Assembly (NCBI GenBank): GCA_902590345.1
Contig: CACIWK010000002.1
Span: 1 to 64,000 of the forward strand
Length of the DNA: 64,000 nucleotides
Origin: an uncultured Pelagibacteraceae bacterium
GTDB taxonomy: Bacteria > Pseudomonadota > Alphaproteobacteria > Pelagibacterales > AG-422-B15
Direction: 5' to 3'
Below are positions 33,621 to 45,916 of this stretch, one piece after another (positions within the stretch are counted from its first letter, which is position 1; every line of letters starts with the position of its first letter). A program made the position numbers and the translations under genes. The notes under the pieces were generated by a model, which worked only from the letters and a program-made list of their open reading frames with translations, did not search any database and was not told the DNA's origin.

Positions 33621-34435
33621 TATTTTACTCCTAATGCCAGCATTAAGTCCTTATCTATTGCAGGAATTTTGTTATGCCACAAATTAAAAGATTGCGCAGC
33701 CTGGTTAATTAGCATTTCTAATCCATTTTGAACCGTACAACCATTTTTTTCAGCACGTTGTAAGAAGGTTGTTTTGCTTGGATTATATATCAAGTCATAA
33801 ACATGTGTAGAAGGTTTAAGGTTATTAAAGTTTATAAGGTTGTTTGCTTCATTTTTTTGCTGACCAAGGCTTGTCGTATTAACAACCAAACTTGAAGATC
33901 CAACAAACTCATTTAGTGATGACTCCGTTAATATTGTTGCTTCTACACCTAGGTCATCACAAAGAAGTTCTACCTTCTCTCTTGTTCTATTAAATATTCC
34001 AATTTCACACCTCATTTGCTTTAACGCAAACACAACTGCCCTTGCCGATCCTCCAGCACCAAGCACCAAGCACTGTTTGCTGCCTAGGTTTCTGTTTACA
34101 ATTGATTTTTGGAAACCGGCTGGGTCGGTGTTTTCACCGTAAACACCATCTTCGTTTACGATCAGTGTGTTAACCGCTTTAAGTGTCCCAGCAACAACTG
34201 ATGTCTTATGACAATATTTATAAGCATCTTCTTTTAGTGGAACAGTTACATTTAAGCCGCTATAGCCCTCTTCTATTAAACGACCAACGTCTTCATCAAA
34301 ATTTTCTTTCTTAACGTTTATTTTTTGATAAGTATCAGAGTCGACACCTTCGCGTTCAATCCAGTGATTATGTATCTTGGGTGAGAGACTGTGATCAATA
34401 GGATCTCCTATAACTGCTGTTTTTTTATGTTTCAT
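33620..34435 (-). CDS. aroE: shikimate dehydrogenase
   Basis: AroE reduces 3-dehydroshikimate to shikimate with NADPH in the aromatic amino-acid pathway. Shikimate binding is shown by DPIDHSLSPKIHNHW and NVTVPLKEDAYKY (catalytic Lys), and the Rossmann loop by VLGAGGSARAVVFAL; NGLEMLINQAAQSFNLW is a C-terminal signature. The ATG at 34435 gives 271 residues and overlaps the end of maf; the TTG three codons upstream is less likely to be the start. Confidence 0.97.
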   Translation of the reverse strand: MKHKKTAVIGDPIDHSLSPKIHNHWIEREGVDSDTYQKINVKKENFDEDVGRLIEEGYSGLNVTVPLKEDAYKYCHKTSVVAGTLKAVNTLIVNEDGVYGENTDPAGFQKSIVNRNLGSKQCLVLGAGGSARAVVFALKQMRCEIGIFNRTREKVELLCDDLGVEATILTESSLNEFVGSSSLVVNTTSLGQQKNEANNLINFNNLKPSTHVYDLIYNPSKTTFLQRAEKNGCTVQNGLEMLINQAAQSFNLWHNKIPAIDKDLMLALGVK

Positions 34436-35030
34436 TGTTCTCAAACAAAAGATTGTTTTCCCAAAGGAATTGAGTTAATTGAATTATTGATATTCCCTGT
34501 ATAGAGAAAAGATCACTTCCGATGCTTTCAAAAAGTTTTATTCCCTCTTTTTCGATTGCATAAACTCCTACAAGGCCAAGAATATTATCGTCGACTTTGT
34601 CAAGGTATTCTGTTATTTGGTCATCTTTTAAATTTCGCATTAACATTTTAGATCTGTCAACATGTTTCCAAATAATATTATTATTTAGAGCAACTGTTGT
34701 CGCGGTTATAAGTGTGTGGGTAGATCCACTCATTTTCTTCAACTGCTCTTTTGCTTCATTTTTGTCTCGAGCTTTACTAATCAGTTCGCCTTTTAAGTCT
34801 AAGCCTTGATCTGACCCAATAACAAGTGCGTCATTGTCTGACATTGAGGGCTTTAGGGCTTTCATTTCAGCGAGTTTAACCACGACTTCTTCTGGTGTTT
34901 TTTTACTCATCGATAACTTTACCTCATTCTCATCTACGCCGTGAGCGACTGTTTCAAAGCTTATGCCGGCATTGCGCAACAATTTAGCTCTTGTTTCACT
35001 CTTGGATGCTAAAATAATATCTCTGTTCAT
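34425..35030 (-). CDS. maf: Maf-like nucleoside triphosphate pyrophosphatase
   Basis: A 201-residue Maf/HAM1-fold protein that hydrolyses modified or canonical nucleotides to monophosphates. The N-terminal signature is ILASKSETRAKLLRNAG, and VIGSDQGLDLKGE lies in the active-site region with the conserved acidic residue. One or two Maf paralogues are usual; this one may be the YceF type. It is the first leftward gene from the predicted origin and its promoter must lie in the maf-hemE spacer. Confidence 0.93.
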   Translation of the reverse strand: MNRDIILASKSETRAKLLRNAGISFETVAHGVDENEVKLSMSKKTPEEVVVKLAEMKALKPSMSDNDALVIGSDQGLDLKGELISKARDKNEAKEQLKKMSGSTHTLITATTVALNNNIIWKHVDRSKMLMRNLKDDQITEYLDKVDDNILGLVGVYAIEKEGIKLFESIGSDLFSIQGISIIQLTQFLWENNLLFENNET

Positions 35031-35303
35031 AAATTTGTATAAACACCCCGGGGCTTGTGGTTATTTTCTCTATCTTTGCTCATCTTTAATTTTTAAACTA
35101 TTTTTCTATCTTTATTGAGAATTTTTGCAAACTTTGTTCACCTGTTGAAAGTGTTGTAGTTTTCTTCCACGGCGGTGAATAAGGCTAAAACCCATATAAT
35201 TCAAAGCGATTGCTCTGTGTATCGAATTGTGGGCAAAAAGTGACTTTTTATATATACACAATTCCACAGGGACATAAACAACTACAATTATATATATATT
35301 ATA
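35031..35303 (+). other. putative chromosomal replication origin (oriC) between maf and hemE
   Basis: This 273-base spacer separates leftward maf-aroE-coaE-dnaQ from rightward hemE-hemH-hemJ-rho; in Caulobacter and relatives the origin lies beside hemE in this neighbourhood. It has AT-rich runs (near 35247-35259 and 35287-35302), a GC-rich palindrome CCCCGGGG at 35046-35053, and several degenerate DnaA-box-like words: the complement of ATAACCACA at 35056-35064, TTGTTCACC at 35134-35142, the complement of TTGCCCACA at 35228-35236, and TTCCACA at 35262-35268. None is a perfect TTATCCACA. No ORF here is convincing. The call rests mainly on gene context. Confidence 0.6.
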
Positions 35304-36290
35304 ATGAGTATATTTATAGATACACTTAGAGGACAAAAAACAAAAACAACTCCAGTTTGGTTAATGAGACAGGCGGGTAGACATCTGCCTGAATATATAA
35401 ATATCAGAAAACAGTTCGTTGACTTAATGGATATGTTTTTAGATTCCTCTACTATACTTGAAATATCAATGCAACCTGTAAAAAGGTACAACATGGACGC
35501 TTGCATTGTGTTTTCAGATATTTTAATAACCCCATTTGCTGCGGGCTCAAGCGTTAAGTTTGTGGAGGGACAAGGCCCGATAATAAAGTTTAACGAGAAC
35601 ATGAATTATGCCCACGAAAGAACACTACCTCTTGCATCAGGAATAAAAAAGATAAAAGAAAATACAGACATTCCTCTAATAGGTTTTGCTGGCGGAGTAT
35701 GGACAACCTTATTTTACTGTTTATTCGGAAAAAACGAACGCCAGAAATTAAAACCTCAAGATATTTCAAAAAAAACTTCGCAGATAGATAACTTAATAGA
35801 GCGCATGACACACGCGACCATTCAGCACGCCGTAATGCAAATCAATTGTGGGATTGACGCGTTTCAAATATTTGAGTCAGCGGCAGGATATCTAAACAAT
35901 GAACAATTTGATAAATGGTGTGTTCAGCCTACAAAAATAATTATTGAAAATATAAAGAAAACAAAAGACATTCCCGTAATAGGCTTTCCAAGAAACACGA
36001 ATCTTGAGTGTTATAAAAAATATTCAAAGATAGATAAGTTGGACTGTGTTACGCTAGATTATAACTTTCCTTTAGATAAAATTAATGAGCTAAACGATAA
36101 AATTGTTTTTCAAGGAAACCTGGACCCTAAACACCTATTAAAGGACTCTCAAAATCTTAGTCAGAAAATTGAAGAAATATTGTTTGCTTTTAGAGAAAGA
36201 CCACATATTTTTAATTTAGGACACGGAGTTTTACCCGATACATCAATTGAGAAGGTTGAGCAAATGCTCTTACAGATAAGATTAAAATGA
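35304..36290 (+). CDS. hemE: uroporphyrinogen decarboxylase
   Basis: HemE decarboxylates uroporphyrinogen III to coproporphyrinogen III in heme synthesis. The signature PVWLMRQAGRHLPEY is at residues 16-30, with the substrate-binding arginines and histidine, and FSDILITPFAAG plus GFAGGVWTTLFY follow. The 328-residue length is normal. It is the first rightward gene from the predicted origin, and overlaps hemH by four bases. The Alphaproteobacterial origin is classically located just upstream of hemE. Confidence 0.98.
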   Translation: MSIFIDTLRGQKTKTTPVWLMRQAGRHLPEYINIRKQFVDLMDMFLDSSTILEISMQPVKRYNMDACIVFSDILITPFAAGSSVKFVEGQGPIIKFNENMNYAHERTLPLASGIKKIKENTDIPLIGFAGGVWTTLFYCLFGKNERQKLKPQDISKKTSQIDNLIERMTHATIQHAVMQINCGIDAFQIFESAAGYLNNEQFDKWCVQPTKIIIENIKKTKDIPVIGFPRNTNLECYKKYSKIDKLDCVTLDYNFPLDKINELNDKIVFQGNLDPKHLLKDSQNLSQKIEEILFAFRERPHIFNLGHGVLPDTSIEKVEQMLLQIRLK

Positions 36291-43644: not shown

Positions 43645-44268
43645 ATGATTGATTCGCCTGATGCTCTAAAAGAGCTCTTGCCAAATGTTTCACGTGAAAC
43701 AATAGAAAAATTGGCAGAATTCAGGGAAATGATTTTAGCAGAAGACCAAAACTTAATATCAAAGAATGATAAAAATTATATCTGGATAAGACACTTCTAT
43801 GATTCTTTAAGATTAGCTCAGTTTATAACTAGCAATGGAAATGATATCATTGATATTGGCAGTGGCGCTGGCCTTCCAGGTATACCAGTTTCGATAATAT
43901 TTGGCTCAAAAAATAAGGTTTTTTTATGTGAAAATAGACCTAAAAGAGTTTCGTTTCTTAACAAATGTATTGTTAACTTAGATCTTAAAAACACTGAAGT
44001 GATTCCCATTAAAGCAGAAAAAATTGAAAATAAAAAATTTGATATCATTTTAGCAAGAGCTGTTAGCCAATTAAATCATTTATTATCAATTAGTTATAAT
44101 ATATGCAAAAAAAACACTACATTGCTTTTGCATAAAGGTGTACATATAGAAGAAGAGATCGTGCAAGCTACTAAATGTTGGGATTTTACTTATGTATTGC
44201 ATGAAAATGAAAGAGAAAAGGGTTCTTTTATTTTGGAATTAAAAAATATAATAAAATCAATAACTTAA
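43645..44268 (+). CDS. rsmG: 16S rRNA (guanine-527-N7)-methyltransferase
   Basis: RsmG (GidB) adds a methyl group to G527 of 16S rRNA with SAM. The SAM-binding region is DIIDIGSGAGLPGIPVSIIF near residue 68, written here as two motifs IDIGSGAGLPG and FLCENRPKRVSFLN. The segment NVSRETIEKL near residue 14 is the classical place where the parS site is encoded; a perfect parS is indeed present there. The last base of its stop is the first base of the parA start (TAATG). Confidence 0.97.
   Translation: MIDSPDALKELLPNVSRETIEKLAEFREMILAEDQNLISKNDKNYIWIRHFYDSLRLAQFITSNGNDIIDIGSGAGLPGIPVSIIFGSKNKVFLCENRPKRVSFLNKCIVNLDLKNTEVIPIKAEKIENKKFDIILARAVSQLNHLLSISYNICKKNTTLLLHKGVHIEEEIVQATKCWDFTYVLHENEREKGSFILELKNIIKSIT
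43686..43701. other. parS centromere-like site inside rsmG
   Basis: The 16 bases TGTTTCACGTGAAACA form a perfect palindrome identical to the widely conserved ParB-binding parS consensus. They lie in the rsmG coding sequence, encoding part of the NVSRET peptide, about 570 bases before parA and about 8.4 kb from the predicted origin. ParB would load here and spread, and ParA would move the origin region to the cell poles. Only this one perfect copy was seen by eye. Confidence 0.95.
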
Positions 44269-45056
44269 TGAAAAATAAAATTATAGCTATCTCGAATCAG
44301 AAAGGTGGAGTGGGAAAAACTACAACAGCAATAAACTTATCCACAGCCTTAGCCGCTATTGGGGAAAAAGTTTTAATTATTGATCTCGACCCTCAAGGAA
44401 ATGCTAGCACTGGCTTAGGCATAGATTATCAAAAGAGATCAAACTCAATTTATGAAGTTCTGGCATCTCAAAGCAATTTATATGATGCAATTCAAAATAC
44501 TGAAATAGAAAATTTAAAAATAATTCCATCCACTGTGGATCTATCAGGCATTGAACCTGAACTTGCTGAAGTAAATGATAGAGCTTTTACACTTAAAAAA
44601 ATTTTAACAGACCAAAACTCATTAAATGATTTTAGTTTTGTTTTTATTGATTGCCCACCAGCTTTAAGTCTTCTCACTGTCATGGCAATGACCGCAGCTG
44701 ATTCTGTCATAGTCCCACTTCAATGCGAATTTTTTGCTTTAGAAGGTCTTAGTCAATTAATAAAAACAATTGATAGGGTTAAACAAAATCTAAATCAAAA
44801 TCTAACAATCGATGGAATAGTTTTAACAATGTTTGATGGAAGAAATAAACTTTCTTCACAAGTTGCTGACGATGTTAAAAAACATTTAAGTCAACAAGTT
44901 TATGAAACCATCATACCCCGTAACGTAAGAGTTTCAGAAGCTCCTTCATTTGGTATGCCTGCATTAATTTATGATCAAAAGGCTGCTGGTAGTCAGGCAT
45001 ATTTAAGATTAGCGGATGAGATCATAAGACAAAACAAAGAACAGGAAGCAGCTTAA
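44268..45056 (+). CDS. parA: chromosome partitioning ATPase ParA (Soj)
   Basis: A Walker-type ATPase of 262 residues that positions the ParB-parS complex. The deviant Walker A is ISNQKGGVGKTTTAINLS, with the signature Lys, and FVFIDCPPALSLL is Walker B. The C-terminus has IPRNVRVSEAPSFGMPALIYD, typical of chromosomal ParA. It is translationally linked with rsmG upstream (TAATG) and parB downstream (TAATG), so mnmG-rsmG-parA-parB form one transcript. Confidence 0.98.
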   Translation: MKNKIIAISNQKGGVGKTTTAINLSTALAAIGEKVLIIDLDPQGNASTGLGIDYQKRSNSIYEVLASQSNLYDAIQNTEIENLKIIPSTVDLSGIEPELAEVNDRAFTLKKILTDQNSLNDFSFVFIDCPPALSLLTVMAMTAADSVIVPLQCEFFALEGLSQLIKTIDRVKQNLNQNLTIDGIVLTMFDGRNKLSSQVADDVKKHLSQQVYETIIPRNVRVSEAPSFGMPALIYDQKAAGSQAYLRLADEIIRQNKEQEAA

Positions 45057-45916
45057 TGAGTTCATCAATTTCAAAAAAAGGTTTGGGTCGTGGACTTTCA
45101 TCACTTATGGGTGATACTAAAGATGTCTCAATTCAAAATGAAAGTTCGAATCAAGAAACAAAAATTTCTATTTCAAATTTAAAACCAAGTCCGTCACAGC
45201 CTCGAAGATTATTTGATAAAAACAGTATTAATGAATTAGCTGAATCCATAAAATCTAAAGGGCTTGTTCAACCAATATTAGTTAGACCCTCACCAACAGA
45301 GTCTGGAACATACGAAATTATTGCAGGTGAGAGAAGATGGCGAGCAGCCCAAATTGCACAACTTCACGAAATTCCTGCAGTTGTTAGAAAACTAGATGAT
45401 GTAGAAGCGTTAGAAATCGCAATTATAGAAAATGTACAACGTTCTGATCTATCACCAATTGAAGAAGCCGCGGGATATAAAAGATTAATTGAAAACCATG
45501 GCCATACTCAAGATGCACTTGCAGAAATTGTTGGCAAAAGCAGAAGCCACATTGCAAATATTATAAGACTTCTTGGATTACCTCAGTCGATTCAAGACAT
45601 GATTACAGAAGGAAAAATTTCAGCAGGTCACGCGCGAGCAATAATGAACAGTGCTTTTCCTGAAAAATTGGCAGAAAAAATTGTAAATGAAAACCTTAGC
45701 GTTAGAGCTGCGGAAAACCTTGCAAAACAAAGAAAATCAGGTGTAAAAAAAGTTAGATTAAAAGACCCGGATACTGTTGATCTGGAAAATAATTTAACTG
45801 CAAAATTAGGACTTAGTGTTTCCATCGATCATAAAGGGAAAAAAGGTGGTTCAATTAAAATAGAATATAAAACTCTTGATCAATTAGAAATGGTGACTGC
45901 TAAATTAAAAAATTAA
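45056..45916 (+). CDS. parB: chromosome partitioning protein ParB (Spo0J)
   Basis: A 286-residue CTP-dependent DNA clamp that loads at parS. It begins with LGRGLSSLMGD, which probably stimulates the ParA ATPase, followed by the CTP-binding domain with GERRWRAAQIAQLHEIPAVV and ENVQRSDLSPIEEA, a helix-turn-helix domain that reads parS, and a C-terminal dimerisation domain. The matching parS is in rsmG. The stop overlaps the stop of holA by four bases on the opposite strand. Confidence 0.98.
   Translation: MSSSISKKGLGRGLSSLMGDTKDVSIQNESSNQETKISISNLKPSPSQPRRLFDKNSINELAESIKSKGLVQPILVRPSPTESGTYEIIAGERRWRAAQIAQLHEIPAVVRKLDDVEALEIAIIENVQRSDLSPIEEAAGYKRLIENHGHTQDALAEIVGKSRSHIANIIRLLGLPQSIQDMITEGKISAGHARAIMNSAFPEKLAEKIVNENLSVRAAENLAKQRKSGVKKVRLKDPDTVDLENNLTAKLGLSVSIDHKGKKGGSIKIEYKTLDQLEMVTAKLKN

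Follow-up and report, generated by a model that had tools for sequence, protein, structure and literature searches.

Gene arrangement around the maf–hemE spacer

The window analyzed here is a 64,000-nucleotide stretch of DNA from an uncultured Pelagibacteraceae bacterium, whose assembly comprises 1.01 Mb in 28 contigs and is 76% complete. A 273-bp intergenic spacer (35031–35303) lies between maf, its left boundary gene (34425–35030, minus strand; Pfam PF02545, 9.3e-40), and hemE, its right boundary gene (35304–36290, plus strand; PF01208, 6e-75), and separates two runs of co-oriented genes. Leftward from the spacer, maf is followed by aroE, coaE, and a gene for a dnaQ-like exonuclease; rightward, hemE is followed by hemH, hemJ (UPF0093), and rho. 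Pfam matches confirmed all eight genes, and with them the spacer and flanking gene order described in a first-pass annotation of this DNA. Farther to the right of rho are mnmE, mnmG, and rsmG, which were named from sequence, and parA and parB, which were identified by Pfam. The annotation had also called the spacer the only divergent switch of its kind. This claim proved incorrect, as further divergent pairs occur at ~4.6, 13.1, 27.6, 30.6, 40.1, 52.4, and 59.6 kb of the window.

The spacer was 68.5% AT compared to 67.4% for the window, and eight of the nine other intergenic gaps measured were 69–83% AT. Thus, the AT-rich runs reported earlier hold for the last ~25 bp of the spacer (88% AT) and not for its full length. 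The spacer contained three words that differ from the DnaA box TTATNCACA by at most one base, compared to ~0.44 expected from shuffled sequences, and an equal count was reached in 0.8% of windows of this size across the 64 kb. By itself this excess over chance is modest, consistent with the degenerate box-like words noted before. A perfect TTATNCACA box was absent from 35031–35303, also as first described; the sole perfect box in the window (TTATNCACA/TTATCCACA) lies inside parA, at 44337–44345. Considered without comparison to relatives, the spacer makes a weak case for a chromosomal origin of replication (oriC).

Candidate elements within the spacer

Given its length and its single-copy match in relatives, the whole spacer (35031–35303) was taken as the candidate oriC. 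Spacer sequences and their alignment placed a weak putative DnaA box, box B (TTGTTCACC, two mismatches), at 35134–35142 on the plus strand. At this site g2/g3 relatives have TTATCCACC, and a perfect TGTGGATAA is adjacent in many members of sister clade g1b. Box C (TTATTCACC, one mismatch; 35174–35182, minus strand) is matched in genus g2 by a perfect TTATACACA. Two further minus-strand words follow: a DnaA-box-like word within the conserved block (CGATACACA, two mismatches; 35216–35224), and box D (TTGCCCACA, two mismatches; 35228–35236), which aligns with a perfect TTATCCACA in genus g4 and has a TGT that is invariant across 14 aligned family spacers.

Nearer to hemE, box E (ATATACACA, one mismatch; 35252–35260, plus strand) did not vary among 22 subclade genomes, its ACA was invariant family-wide, and we propose the box as the anchor box of an unwinding module. 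Box F (AATTCCACA, three mismatches; 35260–35268, plus strand) shares one base with box E, is followed by GG, and contains a CACAGG that is nearly invariant across the family; it is proposed to be the weaker second box of a tandem pair with box E. The triplet tract CAT AAA CAA CTA CAA TTA (35273–35290, plus strand), a putative deviant DnaA-trio, includes a 15-bp run (35273–35287) that was invariant in the 22 genomes. The AT-rich end TTATATATATATTATA (35288–35303), directly 5′ of the hemE ATG, is the proposed duplex-unwinding element, and its TATATA core was invariant across the family. Read toward hemE, the core therefore comprises one DnaA box facing left, two facing right, GG, the triplet tract, and TATATATATA, followed by hemE itself. 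The facing boxes also form an inverted repeat at 35214–35270 (CTGTG..GAATTGTG / CACAATTC CACAG) in the window's subclade; other genera do not retain it as a longer stem.

The first-pass annotation had regarded the DnaA boxes as weak, and the perfect boxes that relatives have at the corresponding alignment positions support this description, as does an ordinary-looking box-binding domain in the host DnaA. This domain (domain IV) contains RPRQVAM, SLPEIG, and GGRDHTTVIHA, which we take to be canonical, judging against E. coli DnaA; the boxes, rather than their reader, thus appear to have drifted. The DnaA signals of the window therefore look unusually weak, yet they appear frozen in sequence across related species. 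This series of clean to eroded boxes and triplets in close relatives amounts to a natural experiment on the minimal sequence that DnaA needs.

Conservation of the spacer with and without hemE

The maf–hemE arrangement was retained in every family member read, and the spacer was present as a single copy of about 260–285 bp (271–277 bp at 30 genus loci and ~262–275 bp in the remaining family members). Three genomes (G032, G033, and G034) were left out because their assemblies contain neither hemE nor a maf ortholog. When the right half of the spacer was used as a DNA query, 39 genus genomes gave one match each, at this locus; four sister-family matches in the same search were fragments of 18–26 bp with E-values of 8e-4 to 0.01.

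The right end of the spacer (35213–35303, about the last 90 bp) was 97.2% identical among 22 genus members, and hemE third codon positions in the same 22 genomes were 78.0% identical. The final 58 bp, taken separately, also showed 97% identity in these genomes. Between two subclades, the segment containing the boxes, triplets, and AT tract was 74% identical compared to 47% for third codon positions. Invariant runs in the spacer extended for 20, 18, and 15 bp, and the longest within hemE was 11. These values indicate that the right part of the spacer is under strong constraint. Variation over four genera was absent or nearly so in the following columns: the TGTG of the leftward box, the ACA and CACAGG of the two rightward boxes, the C-N-A register of the triplets, and TATATA.

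The conserved block might instead be a hemE promoter or regulatory leader, or a control region shared by maf and hemE, rather than an origin. Its most conserved part does adjoin the hemE start, and a TATAAT-like word occurs at 35195–35200. However, the columns conserved family-wide are the cores of DnaA boxes, and the layout outlasts the gene. In the sister family, ppsR (COG1806) lies between the spacer and maf at the sites read, and in two genomes (G053 and G056) rho, not hemE, lies on the right of the spacer, with the order maf-ppsR-spacer-rho in G053. The spacer and its layout of box, triplets, and AT tract remain at these sites, as seen for all three components in G053, which keeps a skew minimum there as well. 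The element is thus independent of hemE, and control of hemE is a very unlikely explanation for its conservation. As origins and hemE promoters can overlap, the origin and the hemE-control readings are not mutually exclusive. Elsewhere in G053 and G056, which are complete genomes (loci L127 and L128), the only hemE-like gene is a distant one with 27–28% identity.

We also considered an RNA leader or riboswitch and rejected it: the spacer matched no Rfam family, its folding was weak (z −1.79), and the consensus structure had five pairs, three of which never varied. Known promoter signals in the spacer were likewise near chance (four matches compared to 2.0 expected).

Putative unwinding module

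The basal unwinding system (BUS), known from the oriC of Bacillus subtilis and that of Helicobacter pylori, consists of tandem DnaA boxes, a short spacer, and DnaA-trios. A DnaA filament seeded from the adjacent box binds the trio as a single strand, and CTA is the complement of the 3′-GAT-5′ trio (PMC8287927, PMC8235120). The triplet tract in the window, which was missed in the first-pass annotation, makes an unwinding module of this kind recognizable. As in the BUS, a box is followed in the same order and orientation by a weaker second box, a G-rich step, triplets, and an AT tract; the upstream box is the closer match; and the distance from the box to the first CTA is 12–15 bp in relatives. 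The triplets 3′ of the rightward boxes are CTACTACTACTA in genera g2 and g4 and CAA CTA CAA TTA in the window. Unlike the BUS, the window varies at the middle triplet base, which is the one reported as conserved: its triplets keep C-N-A, the middle base is T or A, and two of them have the middle base for which the highest conservation is reported. When the BUS is defined as a box at most 16 bp from at least three 3′-NAN-5′ triplets, it is clear in g2 and g4, and the window keeps two such triplets.

A score combining box and trio had the lowest p-value that the shuffle test allows in six genomes (G043, G045, G049, G051, G058, and G065), and was not significant for many sister-family spacers. 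For the window spacer this score did not exceed those of shuffled sequences, and the proposed unwinding module therefore rests on comparison. These scores, together with the two window triplets that have the conserved middle base, would fit an origin opened otherwise than by a BUS, for example by E. coli-like single-strand recruitment, with the triplets incidental. Against this alternative, relatives in g2 and g4 have strong (CTA)4-5 triplets 12–15 bp from the box, with p at the test floor in four of them, and the tract is in register and nearly frozen in the window's subclade. We consider opening by another route possible but the less likely outcome, and opening by the box and triplet module probable.

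In the model that we favor, DnaA would bind weak boxes scattered through the rightmost two thirds of the spacer, and the pair at 35252–35268, facing hemE, would seed a DnaA filament. The filament would extend along one strand of the triplets (35273–35290) and open the adjoining TATATATATA stretch, where helicase would be loaded. It is conceivable, though rather doubtful, that oriC in this genus uses a deviant DnaA-trio (CAACTACAATTA) in which the outer bases of C-N-A are fixed and the middle base can be T or A. If so, DnaA would read single-stranded triplets by a rule unlike that in Bacillus and Helicobacter, perhaps paired with low-affinity boxes fit for slow growth.

GC skew, parS, and dnaA

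Skew evidence came from the genomes of relatives. Three complete sister-family genomes were sampled evenly, covering ~30% of bases at a resolution of 60–72 kb. A symmetric two-arm fit placed at the matching spacer tied with the best fit in G053 and G058, and in G062 it scored 1.20 compared to 1.27 for the best fit, whose interval was 880–910 kb (spacer at 910.5 kb). The skew minimum of G053, where hemE is gone from the site, still lay at the spacer (120–180 kb, spacer at 141.5 kb), and the maximum was at 720–740 kb. G058 had a flat minimum at 260–410 kb that included the spacer (335.6 kb), and one stretch at 1,235 kb was an outlier. In all three genomes, the maxima were roughly opposite the minima.

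Within the genus, skew along contig G015:C1 fell to a flat minimum at 170–290 kb, with the spacer inside it at 209 kb, and then rose; its lowest point, at 247 kb, was 38 kb from the spacer and within the plateau. Skew on a second genus contig, G040:C1, was flat from 320 kb on. Because the minimum was broad and flat, within-genus skew was not used to pinpoint the origin. Plus-strand genes made up 31% of the coding in the 100 kb to the left of the spacer on G015:C1 and 67% in the 100 kb to the right. Cumulative coding orientation was also lowest at 247 kb and was almost as low at the spacer.

A perfect 16-bp parS palindrome, TGTTTCACGTGAAACA, lies within rsmG/gidB at 43686–43701, and 8.4 kb separate it from the spacer; the host assembly has no other copy with two or fewer mismatches. 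The chromosome segregation genes parA and parB (44268–45916, plus strand; Pfam AAA_31/CbiA and ParB_N/HTH_ParB) also lie near the candidate origin. The best parS was 7–20 kb from the spacer in six of six genomes checked, with one perfect copy each in G015, G040, G053, and G062 and a one-mismatch copy in G058. ParB bound at parS would be expected to segregate newly replicated origins. The dnaA gene was 61–73 kb from the spacer in five genomes, and its side differed among lineages: G015, G040, and G053 carry it on the maf side, G058 and G062 on the hemE side. This pattern fits rearrangements or inversions symmetric about the origin.

The broad genus minimum on G015:C1 and the distance of just 61–73 kb to dnaA leave room for a true origin at another point of the flat minimum, such as the vicinity of dnaA, with the spacer just close to it. 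Several observations make this alternative highly improbable. The 3.5 kb around dnaA contained no perfect DnaA box and four scattered one-mismatch words, the skew fits in G053 and G062 favored the spacer over the position of dnaA (73 and 61 kb away, respectively), parS was closer to the spacer than to dnaA, and the boundary genes match those of the experimentally mapped Caulobacter origin (PMC1914354).

Thus, the skew of relatives, the nearby parS, the position and conservation of the elements, and their persistence without hemE all support the first-pass proposal that the spacer is an origin. We conclude from these sequence comparisons that 35031–35303 is very probably the chromosomal oriC of a Pelagibacterales (SAR11-type) genome. 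Our literature search found no SAR11-type origin mapped element by element, and a base-level map of oriC would make it easier to estimate growth from coverage in bacteria that rank among the most abundant in the sea.

Comparison with mapped and predicted origins

Location beside hemE is the usual one for an oriC in this class. The Caulobacter origin, which was mapped experimentally, and the predicted Rickettsia prowazekii origin are both bounded by hemE and COG1806 (DUF299) (PMC1914354). The window spacer resembles the Caulobacter crescentus Cori and the R. prowazekii origin in its hemE side, DnaA boxes, and AT-rich stretch, but is shorter (273 bp compared to >380). Sister-family spacers, like these two origins, have COG1806 (ppsR) as the other boundary. 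The window's family lacks ppsR at this spot, and maf is therefore the boundary. A similar replacement is seen in the predicted Wolbachia and Ehrlichia origins, which are bounded by COG1253 and hemE (PMC1914354): there, too, hemE is retained and the other boundary gene is replaced, although the replacing partner is COG1253 rather than maf.

Sites for other regulators

Unlike Cori, the window spacer has no consensus sites for CtrA or IHF. Matches to the CtrA motif TTAA-N7-TTAA were absent from every spacer of the window's family, and Pelagibacter is reported to lack ctrA (PMC2877005). The window spacer contained no match to the IHF consensus WATCAANNNNTTR; the host encodes two HU/IHF-family proteins. 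GANTC, the CcrM methylation motif, was absent from 68 of 68 orthologous spacers, including that of the window, compared to ~40 expected from composition, a difference that is at most suggestive, because the 68 spacers are related to one another. In the window as a whole GANTC was mildly depleted (140 vs 193), and GcrA is encoded by the host.
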